IMG/VR virus record: IMGVR_UViG_3300049846_001980
Coordinates: 1-21,031 of that record
Origin: a virus
Reading direction: 5' to 3' (one strand)
Length of the DNA stretch: 21,031 nt
The position numbers were made by a program, and so were the translations under genes. Below, in pieces: positions 3,165-17,624 of the stretch (position 1 is its first letter; each line of letters starts with the position of its first letter). The notes under the pieces are model-generated. The model was not told the DNA's origin. It did no database searches and was given only the letters and a program-made list of their open reading frames with translations.

Positions 3165-4603
3165 TAGCCTAGCTGTGCTGTAGTGCCGACGACTCCCGTT
3201 GTGCCAATCACCCAACCAGCTTTACAGATTGGTCTTCCAGGAACTGTGCCATCAAACCCAACGAAACTGCCGAACGAGTCACTCAAATTCGCGAATATCC
3301 TGTATGGAAGAAACGAGTTCAGATAGGTAAAGCCTAACTTCAGTGAAGCTGTACTTGTTTTGTTCAGGTTGATGAACGCATCGGGAGTGCTTGTTGTGCC
3401 ACCGCCTAATCTCACGTCGAGTTGTACATTGGTGGCGTTGCCCGTGCCCTGTTCACCCAAAATACTGAAATCATAGTAGGTGTTAACACCTGCAAGAAAC
3501 CTCTGAAAACTGATCTCTCCAAAGTCGTTGCCGACTCCCGATCTTTGAATCTTGGCCGAGAACTTTGGAGATTCATTCGCAGCGTTGATATTCGCTATCG
3601 CTTGCCGATAGATCCATCTTCCGGTGGTGACATCATTATTGTTCCCCATGTAGAAATAAGGGGCGGAATCGCCGCCCACCCAAACGAGGCCGTGAAAATA
3701 CTTATCGCCCCCAAAGGATTGAACTGTGGTATTCACAGTTCCGCTCACCGTAGGTGTCGCGTTGTGCAAGCCAAGAACCACAGTAGATCCGCCCGAATCG
3801 GCTAAATACAATCCGGAGCGATCCAACTCTGGAGCATAATAGGCAGGATAAATCTCTGTTATGCCTGTCTTGTCGAGCAATCCGGGAGGGTCAGCCCAGA
3901 CACTGATGCTTTCCGCAACCCTGATCCCTGATATTCCTCCTCCCGCCCCCTGTCGATCGCTGCACCATACCTGCGTACCATCCAATGCGTCCGATTCGTA
4001 AATGGCCTGATAGCGTTTGCCATTTTCTAGCGTTTCTCCATTGGGCGCTTTCAGGGACATCGTAAATCCATAGACCCACGCCCCACTACCACTGGAAGCC
4101 TTTTGATCCCAGAAAGCCAACTTAGCGGGCCAGTTGCCGTTGCTATTCGTAGATGAACTTGTCACCTCGGCCATTTGTACAGAGGTTGTTGGATCGGTGA
4201 TGTAATACTCGCCTGATTCGTGCAGATAAGCCAAATACGTTTCGCCAAAGAGCAGATCACGCGCTCCGCCAACCGCGCGCAAGGGCATATTATCCTTGGT
4301 TCCCTCATGGCCATTGTCTGCGTCCACCCACACGGTGCCGTCAGCAGAACGGATGACCTCAAACCAAGCGTACTTATTGTTCGCAGGATCGGACGTACTG
4401 CCGGATAGCACTTGCGCGCGCAAGGACACCGCTCCCCAACGATGCTGAATCAATCCAACACGGGAAGCGAAGGTATTAGACCCGTGCAAATCAATCACAC
4501 TAGAAAGTGAATAGGCCGATTCCGCCTTTTCATCGACGCGCCTTTGCTCCTCTGCGTCTATGATTTCACCAGGTCGATATTCAGGACTGCCCCAAACGTT
4601 CAT
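3164..4603 (-). CDS. Putative tail fibre / receptor-binding protein
   Basis: This 479-aa protein starts at ATG 4603 in an ATGA overlap with the preceding gene. A short charged N-terminal helix (EIIDAEEQRRVDEKAESAYS, residues 13-32) could form the oligomerisation or attachment part. A beta-rich segment follows (WGAVSLRAQVLSG, NKYAWFEVIRSADGTVWVD), then about 250 residues rich in Gly, Asn, Ser and Thr (GGSTVVLGLHNA, YFYMGNNNDVTTGRWIYR). The last 60 residues (TASLKLGFTYLNSF onward) may be a C-terminal tip. Length, composition and position downstream of the tape measure fit a trimeric tail fibre or baseplate-attached adhesin. No hydrolase signature was recognised, so host-surface binding rather than cleavage is the more cautious reading. 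Confidence 0.65.
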   Translation of the reverse strand: MNVWGSPEYRPGEIIDAEEQRRVDEKAESAYSLSSVIDLHGSNTFASRVGLIQHRWGAVSLRAQVLSGSTSDPANNKYAWFEVIRSADGTVWVDADNGHEGTKDNMPLRAVGGARDLLFGETYLAYLHESGEYYITDPTTSVQMAEVTSSSTNSNGNWPAKLAFWDQKASSGSGAWVYGFTMSLKAPNGETLENGKRYQAIYESDALDGTQVWCSDRQGAGGGISGIRVAESISVWADPPGLLDKTGITEIYPAYYAPELDRSGLYLADSGGSTVVLGLHNATPTVSGTVNTTVQSFGGDKYFHGLVWVGGDSAPYFYMGNNNDVTTGRWIYRQAIANINAANESPKFSAKIQRSGVGNDFGEISFQRFLAGVNTYYDFSILGEQGTGNATNVQLDVRLGGGTTSTPDAFINLNKTSTASLKLGFTYLNSFLPYRIFANLSDSFGSFVGFDGTVPGRPICKAGWVIGTTGVVGTTAQLG

Positions 4604-5616: not shown

Positions 5617-7104
5617 TTAATATCTCCATGGTCGTGCAGCTGGCGTTTTCGCTGTCTCTGCGATCTCTTTCAATAGTTGATTTGACTTCTCCAGATGCTC
5701 CAATTGTTTCTTCAAAATCTCGTCGCGAAGCTCAGAGCTTTTCAGCGCTGACGCAGTGAATCGGCGATTGTAAGAAACGAAATCGGATACCACGGGTTCT
5801 GGTCCGCGATAGTCGCGCATGATGTCTTTTTTTTTCTCTTCATCGGTTTTGAGCGCCTCTTTTGCCCCCGCGATCTCCGTCTCGTAGAACTCTCTTTTCT
5901 TGGCATCCATCGGCTTGCCCGTTTTCTTGGCATGCTCCTCGTTCATTTTTAGTTGCTCTTCCAACCCCTTGAGGTACGACTTTTTGACCGCTTCTTCGCC
6001 GTACTTTTCTTTCAGCTGCGCCGGCGTTAGCCACTCTCCCATTTCCTTGCGTGTGCGGATATTCCGTCCGAGTCCCGCACCAAGGGCTAGCGCCGAAAGC
6101 ACAATGCCAGTGATCGTTGCGGCCGTCGCTGCTGCACCTCCTGCTGCACCGGCTGCACCGGCTGCGCCTGCACCGGCACCTGTCGCCACTCCCTTAGCTG
6201 CCGCGCCTGCGCCTGTTGCCACGCCCTTCGCTGCCGAAGCGCCCGCGACGCCCCAAAGTGCAATGGCGGCTGCATCCGCCGCAATTGTCATTGAACCCAT
6301 CGATGCCGTCGCTGCGTTTACAGCAATCGTTTCAGCACCTTTTGCCACAGTTGCAGTCGCAATTGACCCCCGGAAGAGGCTTACGAACCCCGTCGCGACC
6401 GTGTAAACTCCAGTCCCAGTCTTGATGGCCAGCGCAAGCGCACCAATGCCAATCGCGGTTGCACCTACAGCTGTAATGACATCGTTCCACGCGGGGCTAA
6501 GTCGCTCCAAAAACTTGACCGTCTTCTGCGCTGCTGCTGATAGCGCCTCCATAATAGGAATAAAGCGTTGACCGATTTCGGCTGCCAACAATTCCATCGA
6601 CGCGCGGAAGGTCGGGAAAGCGGAGAATGGGTCAGCGCTTGCAACGGCACCAGTGACACCAATCCCGGCTGCGAGACTGACCGCCGCACTCCAGCCTGCC
6701 TGCGCCCGTCCATCCTTAGCTGCCGGCTCTTTCTTCTCTTGCTCTAAACTCTCTCGATCCGCCTTGCCTTGCATAGTATCTGCGCTTCGCTGAAGAGCAG
6801 TCGCGGCGCGCATGAGTAGTTCGGCAGCACGTTCAGGCGATCGAGAGAGTGGTGGAACGTTTCCCGACTGCACAGGGGGTGCGCCCGCATAGGCCACGAA
6901 TGGCTCTGCCTTGGCACTTGCCTCGCCAAGTTTATCTCGAAGCGAGTCTCGCAGAGATCGCAGCTTTTCTAGAAACCAATCCGTTGCTTGATTTGCGTCG
7001 CGCAATGCATCTGCCGCACGCGATTGTGCGATTCGCGATAGCTGCTCCTCGACATCCGCAAGTCGCTCAGAAAGAACACCAATCTCGTTCGCACTCAAAT
7101 CCAC
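5617..7104 (-). CDS. Tail tape measure protein (short)
   Basis: This 495-aa protein starts with GTG at 7104, abutting the TAA of the second tail chaperone ORF. Residues 1-65 are heptad-like helix (VLSERLADVEEQLSRIAQSR). Further helix lies at 90-125, and Ala/Gly-rich hydrophobic stretches follow at 138-157, 205-228, 273-292 and 327-346. A charged helical C-terminal region (LKEKYGEEAVKKSYLKGLEE) completes it. Position after the chaperone pair, plus coiled coil and hydrophobic segments, is diagnostic of a tape measure, which sets tail length and leaves through the tube on infection. With the usual rule of about 0.15 nm per residue, the tail would be roughly 70-75 nm. Odd points are a tandem repeat at residues 291-312 and an A9 run in the message. 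Confidence 0.7.
   Translation of the reverse strand: MDLSANEIGVLSERLADVEEQLSRIAQSRAADALRDANQATDWFLEKLRSLRDSLRDKLGEASAKAEPFVAYAGAPPVQSGNVPPLSRSPERAAELLMRAATALQRSADTMQGKADRESLEQEKKEPAAKDGRAQAGWSAAVSLAAGIGVTGAVASADPFSAFPTFRASMELLAAEIGQRFIPIMEALSAAAQKTVKFLERLSPAWNDVITAVGATAIGIGALALAIKTGTGVYTVATGFVSLFRGSIATATVAKGAETIAVNAATASMGSMTIAADAAAIALWGVAGASAAKGVATGAGAAAKGVATGAGAGAAGAAGAAGGAAATAATITGIVLSALALGAGLGRNIRTRKEMGEWLTPAQLKEKYGEEAVKKSYLKGLEEQLKMNEEHAKKTGKPMDAKKREFYETEIAGAKEALKTDEEKKKDIMRDYRGPEPVVSDFVSYNRRFTASALKSSELRDEILKKQLEHLEKSNQLLKEIAETAKTPAARPWRY
5827..5835 (-). other. A9 homopolymer in the tape measure message
   Basis: The minus strand reads GAG AAA AAA AAA GAC here, nine A in frame, encoding Lys-Lys-Lys at codons 424-426. 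Runs of nine A are known sites of polymerase slippage. Loss of one A would lead into a frame that ends at 5742, and gain of one A gives a shorter different end. Whether slippage happens cannot be told from the DNA. Confidence 0.5.
6169..6234 (-). repeat. 33-bp tandem repeat inside the tape measure gene
   Basis: Two adjacent 33-bp units encode the same eleven residues, AAKGVATGAGA, at residues 291-301 and 302-312. The DNA units differ mainly at third codon positions while the protein repeat is exact. It leads into an Ala/Gly-only stretch up to about residue 330. Such repeats are a simple way to change tape measure and therefore tail length. Confidence 0.8.
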
Positions 7105-7383
7105 TTAATTCCGCCTCCACGACGCCTCGATTCTTGCCTTGAGTACAACCCACTCGCGGATTCTCTCGCTCATCAAATGCCGGGGGAACTTTTGCTTGTA
7201 CAGTTTGCGACGAATGACGTCTTGCACTGGCTCTTCTTCCTTGACCTCCTGGTAGGCGTTAACATCTAGCGCCCCCTTCTCGTCTCGAGGATGCATTAGG
7301 ACCATGCGAACATAGGATCGCGTCAGATTTTTGATCTGATCGCGACGGTAGCCACGCTCCTCTAGCATGGCGAAGACGGTCAC
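7105..7383 (-). CDS. Tail assembly chaperone, downstream (T-like) part reached by -1 frameshift
   Basis: The downstream ORF encodes 92 residues if initiated at GTG 7383, but its frame is open far upstream. The -1 frameshift element at 7391-7434 would join it to the upstream chaperone, as in the lambda G/GT pair. Predicted fusion: residues 1-142 of the upstream protein, then PTEALADDGSPGLKL and this part, 249 aa in all. The sequence is helical and basic (RRDQIKNLTRSYVRMVLMH, DVIRRKLYKQKFPRHL). The fused chaperone normally binds the tape measure and recruits tail tube subunits. An independent start at GTG 7383 or ATG 7368 cannot be excluded. Its stop abuts the GTG start of the tape measure gene. 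Confidence 0.7.
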   Translation of the reverse strand: MTVFAMLEERGYRRDQIKNLTRSYVRMVLMHPRDEKGALDVNAYQEVKEEEPVQDVIRRKLYKQKFPRHLMSERIREWVVLKARIEASWRRN

Positions 7384-7388
7384 AAGTT

Positions 7389-7853
7389 TCAGCCCTGGGG
7401 AGCCGTCATCCGCCAGGGCTTCGGTCGGTTTGGGTCTTGATCCGCCTGCGCCTGCGCATCTTGGAAGGCTTTTAGTTTTTGCGGGTCATCCCAGATACGC
7501 TCTACAAAATCTTCCGCGTCGATCAAATGAGTTGGCGTGCCTTTCATGATTTGAATAGCGGCTAGTTTCTTTTGCCATTTCGTGGCTGCTAGGGCTCGCC
7601 AACAGTGCCACTCCCCCCACTCATAGAGCGCCGTGGCGCAGTCCCGCCGCCATCCATCCAGAAGGGCCGTGTATTCCGCCAATCCGACAGCGCCTTGTTC
7701 GCCCGAGTGCCGAGTAATAGCGCGCATGGCTTCATCTTCGACTGCTCGTGAAAACAAAGCCTCGATCTCAAAATCGCGCGGCGCAATGCGAACTGTCCTT
7801 TCGCCGAGCGTGAATTCCACGGGCAAACTGAGAAGAGCGGCAGATGACGACAT
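7389..7853 (-). CDS. Tail assembly chaperone, upstream (G-like) part
   Basis: This 154-aa protein starts at ATG 7853 with AAGGAG four bases upstream, overlapping the gap after the probable tail tube gene. It starts with a beta-hairpin-like segment (LPVEFTLGERTVRIAPRDFE, residues 11-30), then helices (ALFSRAVEDEAMRAITRHS; WRRDCATALYEWGEWHCWRA). The pattern of a short beta N-terminus, a helical body and position between tail tube and tape measure is typical of lambda gpG-like chaperones. A slippery heptamer covers codons 140-142, 12 codons before the stop. Both the 154-aa product and a 249-aa frameshift product are expected. These proteins act during assembly and are absent from the virion in the known systems. 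Confidence 0.75.
   Translation of the reverse strand: MSSSAALLSLPVEFTLGERTVRIAPRDFEIEALFSRAVEDEAMRAITRHSGEQGAVGLAEYTALLDGWRRDCATALYEWGEWHCWRALAATKWQKKLAAIQIMKGTPTHLIDAEDFVERIWDDPQKLKAFQDAQAQADQDPNRPKPWRMTAPQG
7391..7434 (-). promoter_or_regulatory. Programmed -1 ribosomal frameshift element
   Basis: In the zero frame of the upstream chaperone the message reads GAC CCA AAC, that is the X XXY YYZ heptamer CCCAAAC (7434-7428). A 7-nt spacer (7427-7421) follows, then a perfect 8-bp stem AGCCCTGG/CCAGGGCT (7420-7413 with 7398-7391) around a 14-nt loop. Moving back one base puts the ribosome into the frame of the downstream chaperone ORF, which is open there. Heptamer class, phase, spacing and stem all match established frameshift signals in tail chaperone genes. 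Confidence 0.85.
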
Positions 7854-7861
7854 AGCACTCC

Positions 7862-8287
7862 TTACGTGAGATTGTAATTCCCATCCGAAACGCCTTCAAA
7901 GCTGACGGGTTGCTCTTGGCCAACCGTTCCTTCGAGGGTTACGGCTGTAATTAGAAGACTGTCAATGCTGTGTATTCGCGCACCGGATCTACCACCAGGG
8001 TAGACTTTGACATTCGAGAGGTAATTTGCCTCACGCAGAGACAAAGGTGGCGCGAAATAGTTGACATCATCGTCATAGGTTGCGACACCAACGGAAACAG
8101 TCGCACGCCTGAGATTGCGGAGTGATCCAGCAAATCCGGGGGCGAGCGCTCCTCCGGGTTTACCGGGCTTGCCCTCGGAGTTTGAGCAATCGAGAAGAGG
8201 CGACTCTGCTTTAATCTGATAGCGCTTTGCTACAAAAGCGACGCCATTGACGTCGATCTGGAATTCCCATCCTGCACGTTGCGGCAT
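7862..8287 (-). CDS. Probable major tail tube protein
   Basis: This 141-aa protein starts at ATG 8287 with AAAGGAG six bases upstream. It is beta-rich: WEFQIDVNGVAFVAKRYQIK at the start, a loop rich in Gly/Pro/Lys (GKPGKPGGALAPG, residues 40-52), then LRRATVSVGVATYDDDVNYF, SNVKVYPGG and a final ITAVTLEGTVGQEQPVSFEG ending with SDGNYNL. This arrangement, with a valine-rich strand and a closing (E/G)xSxGxYN-type end, resembles compact phage tail tube subunits that stack into hexameric rings. Position immediately before the chaperone pair is the usual place for the tail tube gene. The family assignment rests on this resemblance and order, not on a search. Confidence 0.6.
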   Translation of the reverse strand: MPQRAGWEFQIDVNGVAFVAKRYQIKAESPLLDCSNSEGKPGKPGGALAPGFAGSLRNLRRATVSVGVATYDDDVNYFAPPLSLREANYLSNVKVYPGGRSGARIHSIDSLLITAVTLEGTVGQEQPVSFEGVSDGNYNLT

Positions 8288-9801: not shown

Positions 9802-10770
9802 TTAGATGTATGGCGAGACAGTCCAATCCGCCCAACCACGGAATGGGTTCGAGTTAGCGCCGGTAATGGTGGTGCCACCAATCGGCGTGAACTCCAGGTT
9901 GAGCGCCTGCCGCAGTAGCGCCGCTAGTCCAACCGATCCCACCAGCATGAGATTGGCGGACGAGAACACGGTGAAAGCGTGTGGATACTGTCCATCGTCC
10001 GTGGCGAGCGACTTCGGCAGAACAAAGCCACGAAACGCCGTTTCGATGTTCTGGAAAATCGTATGCATTTCTGTGAGATTCGGCGTATCGGTGATGTCCA
10101 CCTCGACCGCGTTCCAAGGGTAGCCATAGAACGCCTCTCCTCTCATGGTGCAGAAATACTTGACCAGTCTTTCTTCCATCGACTTGAAGTCGCCGGCATT
10201 CGATTGGAAGTCCGGCCCTTCGCGATGCTGCCACCCCATGGGCTTGAGCGTACTGCCGAAATAGAGTGCAAACAGCTTGTAGGTCAAGGTGTCGTTGGAG
10301 GCGGCATTGAAGGTGAGCAGGTTGTCAACGGTCCCTAGGTTGTGGGTGTCACCAATGAAAGGGCTATCATCGTAACACAAATCCACCTTTGCCGTCCCTA
10401 GCTTTTGCGAGATGCGGATGGACTGGTACACCTTGGCGAGTTCTGCCAGTTCACGCGCCTTGATTTTATACCCGCCCGTCTGATCATCCAGGATATGGTC
10501 AAGAGGCACCTGGAAGGCATTCGAGAAGGTTTCGTTCTTGACGCTGTAGAGCTTTGCGGCGATTTGCGCGTAGTAACGATGCCCCGTGAACACGCTCATG
10601 CCTGGCGGCGGTCCCATAAAGGGATGGTGTTCAATGGTGGTCGTCGAGGGAACGACCGTCGTGAACTTCTCGAATTGGATGGGGGTTGAGGCAGCTTCAT
10701 AGGCCTGGAGGAACTCCAGTTTGAGCGCCGTCGTGAAGAGGCTTACGGCTTGATCAACACTTGCGGCCAT
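9802..10770 (-). CDS. Major capsid protein, Mu gpT-like
   Basis: This 322-aa protein starts at ATG 10770; GGTGA seven bases upstream serves as Shine-Dalgarno. Residues 20-130 follow the Mu gpT major head subunit pattern: QAYEAASTPIQFEKFTTVVP, then PFMGPPPGMSVFTGHRYYAQ, AAKLYSVKNETFSNAFQVP and DHILDDQTGGY. The stretch TAKVDLCYDDSPFIGDTHN corresponds to the family's LCYDGxxFF(D)xDHP region. The C-terminal part (EVDITDTPNL, PHAFTVFSSANLMLVGSVG) would hold the HK97-fold A domain. The protein would form the icosahedral shell after scaffold removal. It lies downstream of the protease/scaffold and decoration genes, as expected. No delta domain is visible, in agreement with a separate scaffold. Confidence 0.85.
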   Translation of the reverse strand: MAASVDQAVSLFTTALKLEFLQAYEAASTPIQFEKFTTVVPSTTTIEHHPFMGPPPGMSVFTGHRYYAQIAAKLYSVKNETFSNAFQVPLDHILDDQTGGYKIKARELAELAKVYQSIRISQKLGTAKVDLCYDDSPFIGDTHNLGTVDNLLTFNAASNDTLTYKLFALYFGSTLKPMGWQHREGPDFQSNAGDFKSMEERLVKYFCTMRGEAFYGYPWNAVEVDITDTPNLTEMHTIFQNIETAFRGFVLPKSLATDDGQYPHAFTVFSSANLMLVGSVGLAALLRQALNLEFTPIGGTTITGANSNPFRGWADWTVSPYI

Positions 10771-12326: not shown

Positions 12327-12854
12327 AGACTCGACCTCAGAGAACACCGAGTATGCGCCCTCCGGCATTCTAACTATATTACATAGGCGAATGTTAGTAC
12401 GATAGCAATATGCATTTTCGGAATGCGATTCGGGAATAGGAATATCGTCCAGAGTCTTCAGCTGTGGTATATCCCCTCCAAGGAAGGCAATGCGGCGGAG
12501 GGTTTTCCCCTTGCCTTGGACGCCATCAGGGGGATCATCATATACCTCGGCAGACACCTTGCGATAGACTCGCCCACGCAGAAGACGCATCACGCTGGAC
12601 GGCACATCGGCAAAGTCAGCATACAGGATCTTGCCCTTGCGATAGACGCGATCCGTCCAGGCGGCAGCGGGTAGACCAGTTCCCTTGAGCATGACCTGCT
12701 CTTCATCGTGGCCAAGAACAGCAGGCACCTTGAGGCGCTTACGGTTGAGATCAAAATTCTCTGCCATGTTATCGAGATCGCGTCGTGTGTAGACCTTGCC
12801 ACGATGCGAGCCGCAAGCAAAGATTGGAACCGCGTTGAGACGTGATTCGCTCAT
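11352..12854 (-). CDS. Head maturation protease fused to scaffold, Mu gpI-like
   Basis: This is 500 residues from ATG at 12854, in an ATGA overlap with the preceding gene; an in-frame extension to 12911 lies within that gene and is unlikely. Residues 1-140 match Mu gpI-like prohead proteases: AVPIFACGSHRGKVYTRRDL, VLGHDEEQ with candidate catalytic His49, TGLPAAAW, ILYADFADVP and YRKVSAEVYDD with candidate Ser101. Residues 215-295 are extremely acidic (DDEMMADDEEMDKEEQSGEE), and 296-450 are charged helix, the expected scaffold core. The C-terminus (VPTTTIDDYL) would contact the capsid protein. The protein should direct prohead assembly, then cleave itself and other head proteins. A nested start at 12326 may yield scaffold alone. 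Confidence 0.85.
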   Translation of the reverse strand: MSESRLNAVPIFACGSHRGKVYTRRDLDNMAENFDLNRKRLKVPAVLGHDEEQVMLKGTGLPAAAWTDRVYRKGKILYADFADVPSSVMRLLRGRVYRKVSAEVYDDPPDGVQGKGKTLRRIAFLGGDIPQLKTLDDIPIPESHSENAYCYRTNIRLCNIVRMPEGAYSVFSEVESMNREEILKTLASMGMDVSSLTDVVPDQALMEILRVVDSLKEQAEDSSREESIDEKEQGDDETPPVDEEQSSNDTEGDMGQDEDRDDEMMADDEEMDKEEQSGEEEYEDWPEPKDDEEKEKYKEKARKYYEHAKKHYEKYWGKECDKMTEADMGALANRVVSIIRKDAKSELATLKKFAEEAHTQNKRSSVDAFIDANLKAGKILPAEIDEANPGNLRDRLYRADAKRVVAKFSENGKNIEFTELDLQMREIESRPAAKFSERFRASKAGVHQTEDQDEVKIKGHYELYSEQYKKLGVSCDSLVKGFAAQKKLVPTTTIDDYLNN

Positions 12855-13594
12855 GATCCACCCTTCACATGCACATAGCCCAGCTTGCGGTCGCCTTCTG
12901 TGATAGCCCAATCATGGAGTTCCTTCTCCGTGCCGCGACCGCCCTCGATTCCCGTCGCGCCAAGAATACCATGCTTACGCAGATGGTAGATGGCCTTGTG
13001 CAGACGTTCCTTGTCGAAGCCTGTTGATTTACCGAGATGATGAATGGGAACGATATTGTTCGCCCGGCCAGGGTGCGCGTTGACGTGTTCGAGGACCGTT
13101 TCATGATCCGCCTTTGTCCATTTGCCCTCTTCGTCGCGAGGCTGCTCGGCGTAGTCGTCATGCTGATCGGGCCAGTCATGGGTTAGATCGTCGATGAACT
13201 CTTTTCCCAATCGTTTGAGATGTTCTTCAGGGTGTTCATCGTACTCATCGGTTGAGGCCCCGTCTTCTTCGTTGCCATCCTCTTCGTCTTCATCTTCGCC
13301 TACAAGGGTGGCAACCTCATCCTCGGTCCCCGGCCCAAGGGCCTCTTGCAATGCCTCCGCAACATTGCTTGCGTCATGCTGTGGGGTGAACTTGCGCAGC
13401 GCAATCTTTACTTCGGTTGCTAGTCTAATCGTGTCTGTCGTCTCGCCTTTCGTGGTCAGTTCCTTGAGGCCGACATATTCACCAGGCAATGACTTCGCCC
13501 ATTCACCGAATGCGCCCCAAGCGGCAGGCGATGCCAGCGAAAAAACACCATCGTCGCCATCAGATGCGCCATGAAATCGAATGGAGTAACTCAT
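12851..13594 (-). CDS. Head-module protein with acidic linker and RDEEGKW motif
   Basis: This 247-aa protein overlaps both neighbours by ATGA. Residues 1-95 look like a small alpha/beta domain (MSYSIRFHGASDGDDGVFSL, WGAFGEWAKSLPGEYVGLKE). Residues 91-145 form a very acidic linker (GEDEDEEDGNEEDG). At 150-160 EQPRDEEGKWT matches the phage RDExGRF-type linker motif that also occurs in the portal upstream. Residues 161-215 have the helix pattern of a winged helix (HETVLEHVNAHPGR, DKERLHKAIYHLRKHGILGA), followed by a basic end. No MuF-type head morphogenesis gene is present, and this gene occupies its usual place between portal and protease. It may be a packaged internal head protein; the function is unknown. 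Confidence 0.65.
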   Translation of the reverse strand: MSYSIRFHGASDGDDGVFSLASPAAWGAFGEWAKSLPGEYVGLKELTTKGETTDTIRLATEVKIALRKFTPQHDASNVAEALQEALGPGTEDEVATLVGEDEDEEDGNEEDGASTDEYDEHPEEHLKRLGKEFIDDLTHDWPDQHDDYAEQPRDEEGKWTKADHETVLEHVNAHPGRANNIVPIHHLGKSTGFDKERLHKAIYHLRKHGILGATGIEGGRGTEKELHDWAITEGDRKLGYVHVKGGS

Positions 13595-16197
13595 TTTGCT
13601 GCCTCCAGCTTTGCCGCTATCTTAGCCGCACGCTTTTTAGCCTTGAGCGCGCGATCCTTTCTCAGTCTCGCTTCATGCTCCTTTGCGGCACGATTACGCA
13701 GCGCCGCAATCTCCTCGGGATCAGAAGGTAACGCGCCTCTAGCTCGCTCCGGCAATTTATGATCGGGCATCTCCAGGAGTCGCTTTAACTCTTCGGGAGA
13801 TTCAACCTTGTGCATGTTCGCAAACGTGTACTTCCCCGCTCCCCGCTTGTAGTAGATCCTGTGACCGGAGTAGCGATCGGCAAAGTCACCATTAGAAAAG
13901 ACGTCGCGTTCGTCGATCGCGATTGTGTGGTAGGTGTCGCCTCCACGCGAAGCCATAAAGTCCACTTTGCGCAGAAGAGCATCGTCATGCATAGTCACGC
14001 CATTCTTCTTTCCCTTGAGGATGCTCTTTACCTCAATCTGGTGACTACCTCCAGCTTTGCCCTTCTTTGGTGCCTCAACATCACGGGGGGCATACTTGCC
14101 GTCCTCAAGAGATTTTGTTTCGCCACCAACGTGCGAGGCTATTTCGTTCTCGATCTTGGCAGCATGGACATGCTCTTGCTTGGCCACTCGGCCCTTATGC
14201 GCTACACCCTCCATTGGTTTGTCCACTTCCCTTTTTGAAGTGGTGGCTTCACCGTCTGTCTCATCTGAGCCTTTCTTCACAAACTGCCCTCCCTTGCTCG
14301 ATCCCGCAGGCGCATGAGGATGCTTAGAGGGGTCGAATCCCTCATCATGCGTTTGCACAGAGGACAGTTTCTTGTGTAGCCATGCGGCAGCGATCACAGG
14401 GGCGGCGGTGATCACACTGCTGCCCGGAACAGGAAGAGGCAGACCGGCGATACCGGCCCCCATGATCGCTATGGCCCATTTGCGACCGTACTTCGCCTCA
14501 AGCGCATGATACTTGCCGATCGCGTAATGCTTGGCCTTGCTCGCAATATGCTTAGGAAGATGCGCTGCAAGCGCCAGCCAAGAAGAATGGTGCTGAGACT
14601 CTCGGTCTGGGGCTTTCCCTCCGCCCTGCCCTTTCTTGGCGAACCGGCCTTTGTTCCTTTCAACCTTACTCTCGTCCCATGGTCGATCGTCGTACATTTT
14701 CGCCTTGCGCGTGAACAAGCTCACCTGGTCGGACGGTGGCGCTTCAAAGTCATCGCCATCGAAAACCGTTGCATCATCGGCAAACGGCAGTTCCGATCCA
14801 TTGGCACCCGGTTCGCCGGGAGGAGGTTTCTGCCCGCCTTCGTTGAACAGACGGTCGTCATCATCTTCAGGAGGCTTGCGGTTATAGCGCTCGTAAATGT
14901 CTTGCTTCGACAACTCCACGCCCATCGACCACATCCTGTTATCGATCTCAAGTTCTCGCGCTTGCTCATTGATGTCTACAGCGGATAGCTTCGCTCTGGG
15001 GTAGCGATCAACAACGTAGTTGATGTCCACGATGTCCTTGATCAATCCCGTCTCTCGATCGTTGAGAAGGGATTGCATGTTGCGTGCGAGGTGCCACTTA
15101 AGCTGGTCAGACGTTGAGCGATGAACCTGGCTGTTGCCCCGCCCATCGGTTGTCTCGCCCTCCAGCTGCTGAAGAATGGCACCTTGCAATCCGAGGAAAA
15201 TCTCGTGCTGGAAGTCCTTGCACGCGCTAGCGAAAACCTCGTCACCACCTCCGGCGATCTCCAGAGCCTGCACCTGGACGCGATCAGGGATAGCCAGCCA
15301 CATGCTGGACCGTAGCTGCGCTAGCGCCCTTTCCAGAGACGGGCGGTCTGAGGCGTCCTTGAACGTGCCCACAGCAACAGGGTATGTCCGCGACTCCAGA
15401 AACTTAGCTCGCAGTTTCCGCACCGTATCGAGCATCCACCAAGACGAGTAGACGCCGCGAAAATCAGACATGCCGCCAGGGAACCCCCACAGCGGGAGAT
15501 GCTGGTAGATAACGAATTCCGAGGGCGGGAAGATTGTGCCAGGGTTATAACGCAGGCCCATAAGCCCAACGATGTTGCGAAACTCATCAAGCTGGAGAAC
15601 AATGTCGTTGCCCGTGTCCTTCGGCTTTAGTGCGCGCAAAGCATACTTGCCAGCGAAATCGCCCCTCTCTTCCAGTGCCCACACCTTTTCATTGACGGAA
15701 TAGCCATCGATCAGTGCGCCAGAGAGAATGTTCCACAGTGCGCCGTCGATGCCGCCTTGCAAGCAATCTTCGAGATTGTAGCGTACAAACTCAGCGATAC
15801 GTTGATCACGGGGGTTCTTGCGGTCTGCTGGGATAACCTCTAGGTCGAGGGCGCAGACCGCAAGAACCTTGCCGAGAAATGCAGCTTTGACGTGAGGGCT
15901 ATCGAGCATTCGACGATAGGCGACGCGCATTTCCGCCGTCTCGCCCATCGTTTGATGCGAGTCGAAGTAAGGCAAAAAGAGTGGCAGTATAACCGATGGT
16001 GGCCCGGAGCGCACCGATTCGCTGCGCAAATCGACATCAGCCACGGTCCCCTTGGAGAGTCTTGGGGTGATCCATCCGCCCATCTTCTCCTTGAGCCAAG
16101 CCAATACACCTTTGGATCGACCAGGAGGTTGTTGCCCTGGGCGGGGCGTAAACCACGGTGCGATACGGTCAGCTTGTCCATTGAAGGTAGTTACCAT
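13591..16197 (-). CDS. Portal protein (DUF935, Mu gp29-like) with about 400-aa C-terminal extension
   Basis: This 868-aa protein starts at ATG 16197, overlapping the terminase stop. Residues 80-450 carry the DUF935 portal core: MGETAEMRVAYRRMLDSPHV, NILSGALIDGYSVNEKVWAL, PPSEFVIYQHLPLWGFPGG, WWMLDTVRKLRAKFLESRTY and LSKQDIYERYNRKPPE. Ordinary relatives end near 500 residues. Here follow PWDESKVERNKGRFAKKG (506-523), a hydrophobic segment WAIAIMGAGIAGLPLPVPG (574-592) with more at 594-607, FDPSKHPHAPAGSSKGGQF (621-639), then a domain at about 678-797 with Asp706 and IEVK (721-724), like PD-(D/E)xK nucleases. A basic helical tail (REARLRKDRALKAKKRAAK type) ends it. The core docks terminase and tail; the extension may be a virion-carried effector, which is inference. 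Confidence 0.85.
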   Translation of the reverse strand: MVTTFNGQADRIAPWFTPRPGQQPPGRSKGVLAWLKEKMGGWITPRLSKGTVADVDLRSESVRSGPPSVILPLFLPYFDSHQTMGETAEMRVAYRRMLDSPHVKAAFLGKVLAVCALDLEVIPADRKNPRDQRIAEFVRYNLEDCLQGGIDGALWNILSGALIDGYSVNEKVWALEERGDFAGKYALRALKPKDTGNDIVLQLDEFRNIVGLMGLRYNPGTIFPPSEFVIYQHLPLWGFPGGMSDFRGVYSSWWMLDTVRKLRAKFLESRTYPVAVGTFKDASDRPSLERALAQLRSSMWLAIPDRVQVQALEIAGGGDEVFASACKDFQHEIFLGLQGAILQQLEGETTDGRGNSQVHRSTSDQLKWHLARNMQSLLNDRETGLIKDIVDINYVVDRYPRAKLSAVDINEQARELEIDNRMWSMGVELSKQDIYERYNRKPPEDDDDRLFNEGGQKPPPGEPGANGSELPFADDATVFDGDDFEAPPSDQVSLFTRKAKMYDDRPWDESKVERNKGRFAKKGQGGGKAPDRESQHHSSWLALAAHLPKHIASKAKHYAIGKYHALEAKYGRKWAIAIMGAGIAGLPLPVPGSSVITAAPVIAAAWLHKKLSSVQTHDEGFDPSKHPHAPAGSSKGGQFVKKGSDETDGEATTSKREVDKPMEGVAHKGRVAKQEHVHAAKIENEIASHVGGETKSLEDGKYAPRDVEAPKKGKAGGSHQIEVKSILKGKKNGVTMHDDALLRKVDFMASRGGDTYHTIAIDERDVFSNGDFADRYSGHRIYYKRGAGKYTFANMHKVESPEELKRLLEMPDHKLPERARGALPSDPEEIAALRNRAAKEHEARLRKDRALKAKKRAAKIAAKLEAAK

Positions 16198-17624
16198 TCA
16201 ATATGCTCCGGCGGAGTACGCGAGCTACCATACCAGGGCTGATCGTCCGTCACGGAAAAGACTCCAGGAGGTGCTTTGTCAATTTCGCTTCGGTTGTCGA
16301 TAGTAGGCACGCTCCAATCGTCTCGTTCCGTTGCAGGCCGGAAGAGCCATGAGACAATATACCTCTCCGCATCCATGATATGGTAGGTTTCTTTCGCCTC
16401 GATCTTTTCCGTGGGGTTACCAGACTCGTCTATCTCCCGCGAATAGCTATTCTTCTCATCAAGGTATTCGGCCAGGTCGTCAAAGACAATGAGTTGATGC
16501 TGTGCATGCGCCGCGAAGACGCGACCGATGCCTACCTCTACTTCCGATACCGTTGGTTCCTGGACGGACAGCCCAGCCAGGGAGAACTCGTCCCGCCATT
16601 GATCCTCTGACCCTGCGCCTCCTACGGTATGCGGACGCATAGGTTCATTAGCCAGGAGCGCTTCAACATGCGCTTTGGCGCTTCGTGATCCCTCGTGGTA
16701 GGTTCGATACACATAGTAGCGTCCTGTGGCCTGACGGTGCGCGTCCTGCTCTTGAGCAAGGAACACGCCGGCGGTATTCACGCCGCCGAAGTCAAGGCCT
16801 AGATACCGTGGCCAATGCTTAGGTAAAGCAAATCGCGGAACAACGTGATGCTGCTCGTCAAAGGACGAGTAGATCAGACCAGCCGGGCGCGAAAACACAC
16901 CCCGGTAGAACATATCGAACTTCCACCGTGGCAAAGTGCGTTGCGCCCGTTCATACTCATCACGAGGAAAAGCAGGATTAGCGAGAGAGTCGAAGTTGAT
17001 GACGTCAATCTCAGGATGTTTCTTGCCAGCCTTCACCCACTCATCAAACAGGCACGTCTTGAGCCATCCGAGGTCGTAGGGGGTGGTGGTAATCAGGACG
17101 CGGCCTTTATGAATCGCAAGGCGTCTCTGGATGGCTTCCCACGAACCGAGTCGGAACTTCTTCTGACCGGCTTCATCGAGCCATGCGGCCTTCGCTGTGG
17201 CGGACTCCAGAGATTCAGGATCTTGTGCATGAGCAAAAAAAATCTTGGTCGGTTCGCTTTGCGGTTTGCCAAAGATTTGCTTCTCGCCCGATGGGGATAA
17301 AAGGAAGAACTTCTGTTGAGCGTGATAGATCCCAAACGATTGAAGAGTCTGGAAGTAGTTCAGAAACTCCGGGAGTACCTTTTTCGAGAGCAACGGATAG
17401 GTGGGCGAAATTACCAAGTAGTCCCCCGGGCCACGCATCTCAATCTCACGTCTGAGCCAGACAGGGCCAATCGTAGTCTTGCCAGATTGTGTGCCGGCAA
17501 GAACGAGGATACATCGCTTGGTCGAGTGCGCCGCCTTCCATTGTCCCGGATGCGGCTTGATGCGCAATCTCGGCTTGCCCTTCTGATCTACAATCTCCTC
17601 AAGGAACGGCATCATCCACTCCAT
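16191..17624 (-). CDS. terL: Terminase large subunit
   Basis: This is 477 residues. The ATPase half shows Walker A AGTQSGKTT (43-51), Walker B AAWLDEAGQ with Asp150 and Glu151, and coupling motif VLITTTPYD (177-184). The nuclease half has the first RNase H-like acidic residue in YLGLDFGGVNTAG (Asp278) and a late acidic residue in HIMDAERYIVSWLF (Asp418). The protein packages DNA through the portal and cuts the concatemer. Its length is normal for the family and both active sites look intact. It overlaps the small subunit by 26 bases, so an internal Met at residue 4 or 5 could be used; it overlaps the portal start by seven bases. Packaging type (cos or headful) cannot be decided here. Confidence 0.92.
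   Translation of the reverse strand: MEWMMPFLEEIVDQKGKPRLRIKPHPGQWKAAHSTKRCILVLAGTQSGKTTIGPVWLRREIEMRGPGDYLVISPTYPLLSKKVLPEFLNYFQTLQSFGIYHAQQKFFLLSPSGEKQIFGKPQSEPTKIFFAHAQDPESLESATAKAAWLDEAGQKKFRLGSWEAIQRRLAIHKGRVLITTTPYDLGWLKTCLFDEWVKAGKKHPEIDVINFDSLANPAFPRDEYERAQRTLPRWKFDMFYRGVFSRPAGLIYSSFDEQHHVVPRFALPKHWPRYLGLDFGGVNTAGVFLAQEQDAHRQATGRYYVYRTYHEGSRSAKAHVEALLANEPMRPHTVGGAGSEDQWRDEFSLAGLSVQEPTVSEVEVGIGRVFAAHAQHQLIVFDDLAEYLDEKNSYSREIDESGNPTEKIEAKETYHIMDAERYIVSWLFRPATERDDWSVPTIDNRSEIDKAPPGVFSVTDDQPWYGSSRTPPEHIEW

Follow-up and report, generated by a model that had tools for sequence, protein, structure and literature searches.

Two small ORFs that follow one another in different reading frames, directly upstream of the gene for a phage tape measure protein, raise the question of whether they are expressed as two independent genes or are joined by ribosomal frameshifting, as are G and T of phage lambda. 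We have addressed this question for such a pair in the 21,031-base virus record IMGVR_UViG_3300049846_001980. The whole of this stretch will be referred to as the window, and the genes considered here are all encoded on its minus strand. The original prediction held that a −1 frameshift signal fuses the two ORFs, and this reading is supported by the heptamer, its phase, the hairpin that follows it, the open −1 frame, the adjacency of the tape measure gene and the comparison with a distant relative, each of which is presented below. Judged from these features of the sequence, a programmed −1 ribosomal frameshift of the lambda G/GT type is very probably the correct explanation.

The ORF pair and its neighbors

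The features of the locus are collected in Table 1. The ATG of the upstream ORF is preceded by the Shine-Dalgarno sequence AAGGAG (−8.7 kcal/mol), and the downstream member of the pair, the T part, appears in a listing of ORFs as a protein of 92 aa that begins with the GTG at 7383. The gene directly downstream of the pair matches PHROG 167, tail length tape measure protein (E 3.8e-8). Pairs of the G/GT type are expected to lie between the genes for the major tail protein and the tape measure protein. The product of the gene directly upstream has no family match and is a tail-protein candidate by its place only; it is 36% identical to the product of L001:2484-2987 (L001 is record IMGVR_UViG_3300037465_000244, and L004-L008 are the same contig) and belongs to a tail module that is common to both.

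Table 1. Features of the predicted frameshift locus in the window
Feature	Position	Strand	Description
Putative tail protein gene	7862..8287	−	141 aa, directly upstream of the pair
Upstream ORF, gpG-like putative tail assembly chaperone	7389..7853	−	154 aa, ATG start
Slippery heptamer CCCAAAC	7428..7434	−	phase C_CCA_AAC within ORF 7853-7389, 14 codons ahead of its TGA
Spacer CGACCGA	7421..7427	−	7 nt
Predicted stimulatory hairpin	7391..7420	−	AGCCCTGG/CCAGGGCT plus inner GGA/TCC pairs
TGA stop, unshifted frame	7389..7391	−	14 codons past the heptamer
T part, −1 frame	7105..7434	−	open for 109 codons counted from the heptamer; its stop ends at 7105
Predicted GT-like fusion	7105..7853	−	249 aa = 142 + 107 after the −1 shift
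Tape measure protein gene	5617..7104	−	495 aa, directly downstream of the pair

A search of the G and T parts with hmmscan against Pfam, PHROGs and NCBIfam returned no match, and a sequence search of the PDB with the G part gave nothing usable. The AlphaFold models are of low confidence (pLDDT 43 and 60), and fold searches with these models against predicted viral structures (BFVD) gave no significant match. The designation of the pair as tail assembly chaperones, which formed part of the original prediction, is therefore upheld by the place of the ORFs before the tape measure gene and not by a match of family or structure; we regard the upstream ORF and the T part as putative chaperones on the basis of position and architecture.

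A slippery heptamer and an open −1 frame

As had been predicted, the heptamer that precedes the TGA of the upstream ORF is in phase, it is followed by a 7-nt spacer and the −1 frame is open into the 92-aa ORF; our computation likewise returned a fusion of the predicted length. The −1 frame is free of stops from 17 codons before the heptamer through the stop that ends at 7105, and at the junction the fusion would join the residues ...ADQDPN to PTEALADD.... The motif alone is not rare, with four occurrences of CCCAAAC in the window versus 2.3 expected. When any letters are allowed, the genes of the window contain 11 in-phase heptamers of the form X_XXY_YYZ, and the −1 frame extends for 2 to 71 codons from the other ten, compared with 109 for this one. 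What is unusual about CCCAAAC at 7434-7428 is its phase together with its place, and not the motif itself. An in-phase CCCGGGG at 17430 (minus strand), within the terminase ORF, has a −1 frame of 71 codons, and slippage there is unlikely because both triplets are made of G and C.

We also considered a dnaX-like Shine-Dalgarno stimulator upstream of the heptamer. The values obtained were −5.8 and −6.5 kcal/mol. Background positions do as well in 30% and 22% of cases, respectively, and a stimulator of this kind is therefore not supported.

A predicted downstream hairpin

The arms of the predicted stem, AGCCCTGG at 7420-7413 and CCAGGGCT at 7398-7391, are separated by 14 nt. The perfect 8-bp stem of the original prediction is present, but its simple 14-nt loop is not, because three additional GGA/TCC pairs form inside; the resulting fold has 8 + 3 bp interrupted by one bulged nucleotide, closes on a loop of 7 nt and has a stability of −19.7 kcal/mol. 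It had also been stated that the entire signal lies before the upstream stop. This is true of the heptamer and spacer but not of the whole stem, which touches the stop because its 3′ arm ends on the T of the TGA, base 7391.

None of 1000 dinucleotide shuffles contained an 8-bp Watson-Crick stem at equal spacing, and throughout the record such a stem is found at 18 of 6992 positions. The 40-nt fold that starts 5 nt past the heptamer has a z value of −3.6, and equally stable folds are found in 3 of 1000 shuffles and at 14 of 4199 positions of the record. Stimulatory structures are commonly, though not universally, spaced 5-9 nt from the slippery site, and the predicted hairpin, at 7 nt, fits this range. 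No Rfam family was matched within 7000-7900 at E <= 5.

The proposed hairpin is dominant when at most 57 nt are folded and again when at least 80 nt are folded; a competing hairpin wins when only 60-65 nt are folded, and the two are balanced at 75 nt. These modelled folds may be taken to suggest a two-state RNA. With about 60-65 nt downstream free, the alternative hairpin, which buries GTG 7383, would displace the stimulatory one, so that frameshifting and independent initiation of T would be mutually exclusive and the G:GT ratio would be tuned. We consider such a switch very unlikely.

A distant relative with the same signal

The viral_contigs set was scanned with the G part, the T part, the tail protein, the tape measure protein, p338 and the capsid protein as queries. 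These scans yielded one relative of the tail module, L001, and one of the capsid, L003; scans of bacterial and archaeal genomes yielded no relative, and among phage records there was no match to the G part, the T part or p338. The upstream ORF is 43% identical to L001:3001-3450 and the −1 frame is 42% identical to L001:3408-3704, and the tape measure protein, the upstream tail protein and the downstream p338 are likewise related. Terminase and portal queries had no match in the L001 record, and the shared part that we see is therefore the tail module.

Elsewhere in the window, 9802-10770 (minus strand) encodes a Mu-like major head subunit (PF10124) and 13591-16197 (minus strand), an ORF of 868 aa, encodes a Mu-type portal (PF06074). 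The presence of Mu-like head genes together with a tail module shared with L001 raises the possibility, based on sequence comparison, of an exchange of head and tail modules. Among phage records the portal ORF finds only distant portals of Bacillus, Staphylococcus, Rossellomorea and Thermus phages. Similar motifs, KHPHAPAGSSKGGQFVKKG and QPRDEEGKWTK, are present in the C-terminal part of the portal ORF and in the adjacent ORF of 247 aa (12851-13594, minus strand).

Comparison with homologous phages had been suggested as a check on the original prediction, and L001 retains the heptamer, its phase, a similarly spaced stem and the open −1 frame at 42-43% protein identity. CCCAAAC is found at 3408-3414 of L001 in the identical phase and at the aligned codons (DPNR in frame 0, PKP in frame −1), and the −1 frame continues past GTG 3465 and ends at 3704, so that the fusion would comprise 234 aa. 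A hairpin of 12 pairs (−28.9 kcal/mol) is predicted to start 5-6 nt past the heptamer; it is similar in placement to that of the window and unrelated in sequence. As L001 is the sole relative found, the conservation of the signal rests on two sequences.

This comparison bears on whether the heptamer and the hairpin might both have arisen by chance, with the −1 frame open by luck. The number of CCCAAAC copies in the window, as noted above, is compatible with this idea, and the 17 stop-free codons that lead from the heptamer to the GTG are unremarkable. However, the two phages have the heptamer at the same codon. L001 has a composition of 69% G+C and CCA makes up 5.8% of its proline codons, and when the sequences were recoded synonymously with the codon use of each phage, joint occurrence of the heptamer at the site was seen in 0.5% of trials, which corresponds to a probability of about 0.005. 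Nor does chance readily provide the stems, since one as long as that of L001 appeared in 1 of 1000 shuffles and, as described above, that of the window in none. A fortuitous signal is thus extremely improbable. The same comparison argues against a single continuous gene that has been split by an error of sequencing or assembly. Indels are possible in metagenomic contigs, but two contigs that are only 42-43% identical would have to be split at the same place and with the same frame order, and to carry a canonical heptamer where the two frames join, and to this explanation we can give almost no credence.

The start of the T part

A more serious alternative is that the two ORFs are separate genes, the T product being initiated at GTG 7383, 17 codons past the heptamer, by reinitiation or from its own ribosome-binding site, with the heptamer incidental. 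The GTG and the residues VT that follow it are common to both phages, and protein conservation between the window and L001 is weak over the 17-19 codons that separate the heptamer from the GTG and rises from the GTG onward. In L001, moreover, GTG 3465 is preceded at a distance of 8 nt by a strong Shine-Dalgarno sequence, TAAGGAGG (−11.9 kcal/mol). But in the window the Shine-Dalgarno sequence of GTG 7383 is nearly absent (−3.1 kcal/mol, the weakest among 16 starts scored), and the T part of the window is therefore poorly placed for independent initiation. Separate genes also leave unexplained why an in-phase heptamer is kept although L001 seldom uses one of its codons, why hairpins follow it and why in both phages the −1 frame extends without a stop to a point before the heptamer. 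We judge it quite unlikely that the pair is expressed in this manner only. A separate start for T could coexist with frameshifting in L001, where the strength of the ribosome-binding site makes independent initiation possible. At L001:3448-3465, TAAGGAGG overlaps the stop of the upstream ORF, an arrangement that has no counterpart in the window.

Comparison with known systems

Frameshifting by −1 between two small genes that precede the tape measure gene is reported to be a widely conserved feature of long-tailed phages (PMC5009743), and the same conservation in tailed phages is attributed to Xu et al. (2004) in the account given in PMC2628397. The present locus resembles lambda gpG/gpGT in that two small ORFs precede the tape measure gene, an X_XXY_YYZ heptamer lies near the end of the first and a −1 shift would produce the fusion. 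It differs in that the lambda heptamer is G_GGA_AAG and not C_CCA_AAC, in its prominent downstream hairpin and in that its proteins do not match a curated chaperone family. The haloarchaeal viruses HCTV-1 and HCTV-2, as cited in PMC5009743, use G_GGA_AAC and A_AAA_AAC, respectively, for g-t expression; they share with the window an AAC (Asn) second slippery codon but differ from it in the first triplet, which is CCC here, and in their archaeal hosts. C_CCA_AAG is reported to be highly shift-prone in E. coli (PMC5009743). Because these three heptamers have already been reported, C_CCA_AAC represents a small variation. A text search of the open literature for CCCAAAC in connection with phage frameshifting found no relevant paper. 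The E + E′ genes of P2 and Smp131 (PMC3931495) also combine a −1 frameshift in tail genes with a GUG close to the beginning of the second ORF, which in P2 is without a ribosome-binding site (PMC3931495). In contrast to the window, these phages slip on a homopolymer of T (T6G or T7G) and have contractile tails.

The capsid relative L003 (IMGVR_UViG_3300044999_000021) has a major capsid protein related to that of the window and a tail module that bears no recognisable relation to it. It contains its own, unrelated chaperone-like pair at L003:11294-12070, the upstream start of which is approximate. Overlapping in-phase heptamers, G_GGA_AAA (11642) and A_AAA_AAC (11645), end the upstream ORF directly ahead of its TAG stop and lead into an open −1 frame. 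In having slippery heptamers in phase at this place, followed by an open −1 frame, this pair is like that of the window.

A model for expression of the pair

From the arrangement of these elements we infer the following. Most ribosomes would read to the TGA and produce the gpG-like chaperone of 154 aa. A minority would be paused by the hairpin 7 nt downstream while tRNA-Pro occupies CCA and tRNA-Asn occupies AAC, and the tRNAs would slip back by one base and re-pair with CCC and AAA. Continuing in the −1 frame, the slipped ribosomes would extend the chain by 107 residues to give the fusion. In lambda the tape measure protein is bound by the short form as well as by the fusion, whose T part brings in tail tube subunits (PMC5009743). 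By analogy, both forms here would cover the tape measure protein, the fusion would recruit tail tube subunits through its T part and neither form would stay in the virion.

For the field at large, this locus adds one more example of a feature that is widespread and well described. Here the predicted tail frameshift occurs in protein families that curated libraries do not recognise, and automatic annotation would give two genes and miss the fusion. Where searches by homology give no answer, the frameshift signal itself therefore helps to identify such genes.
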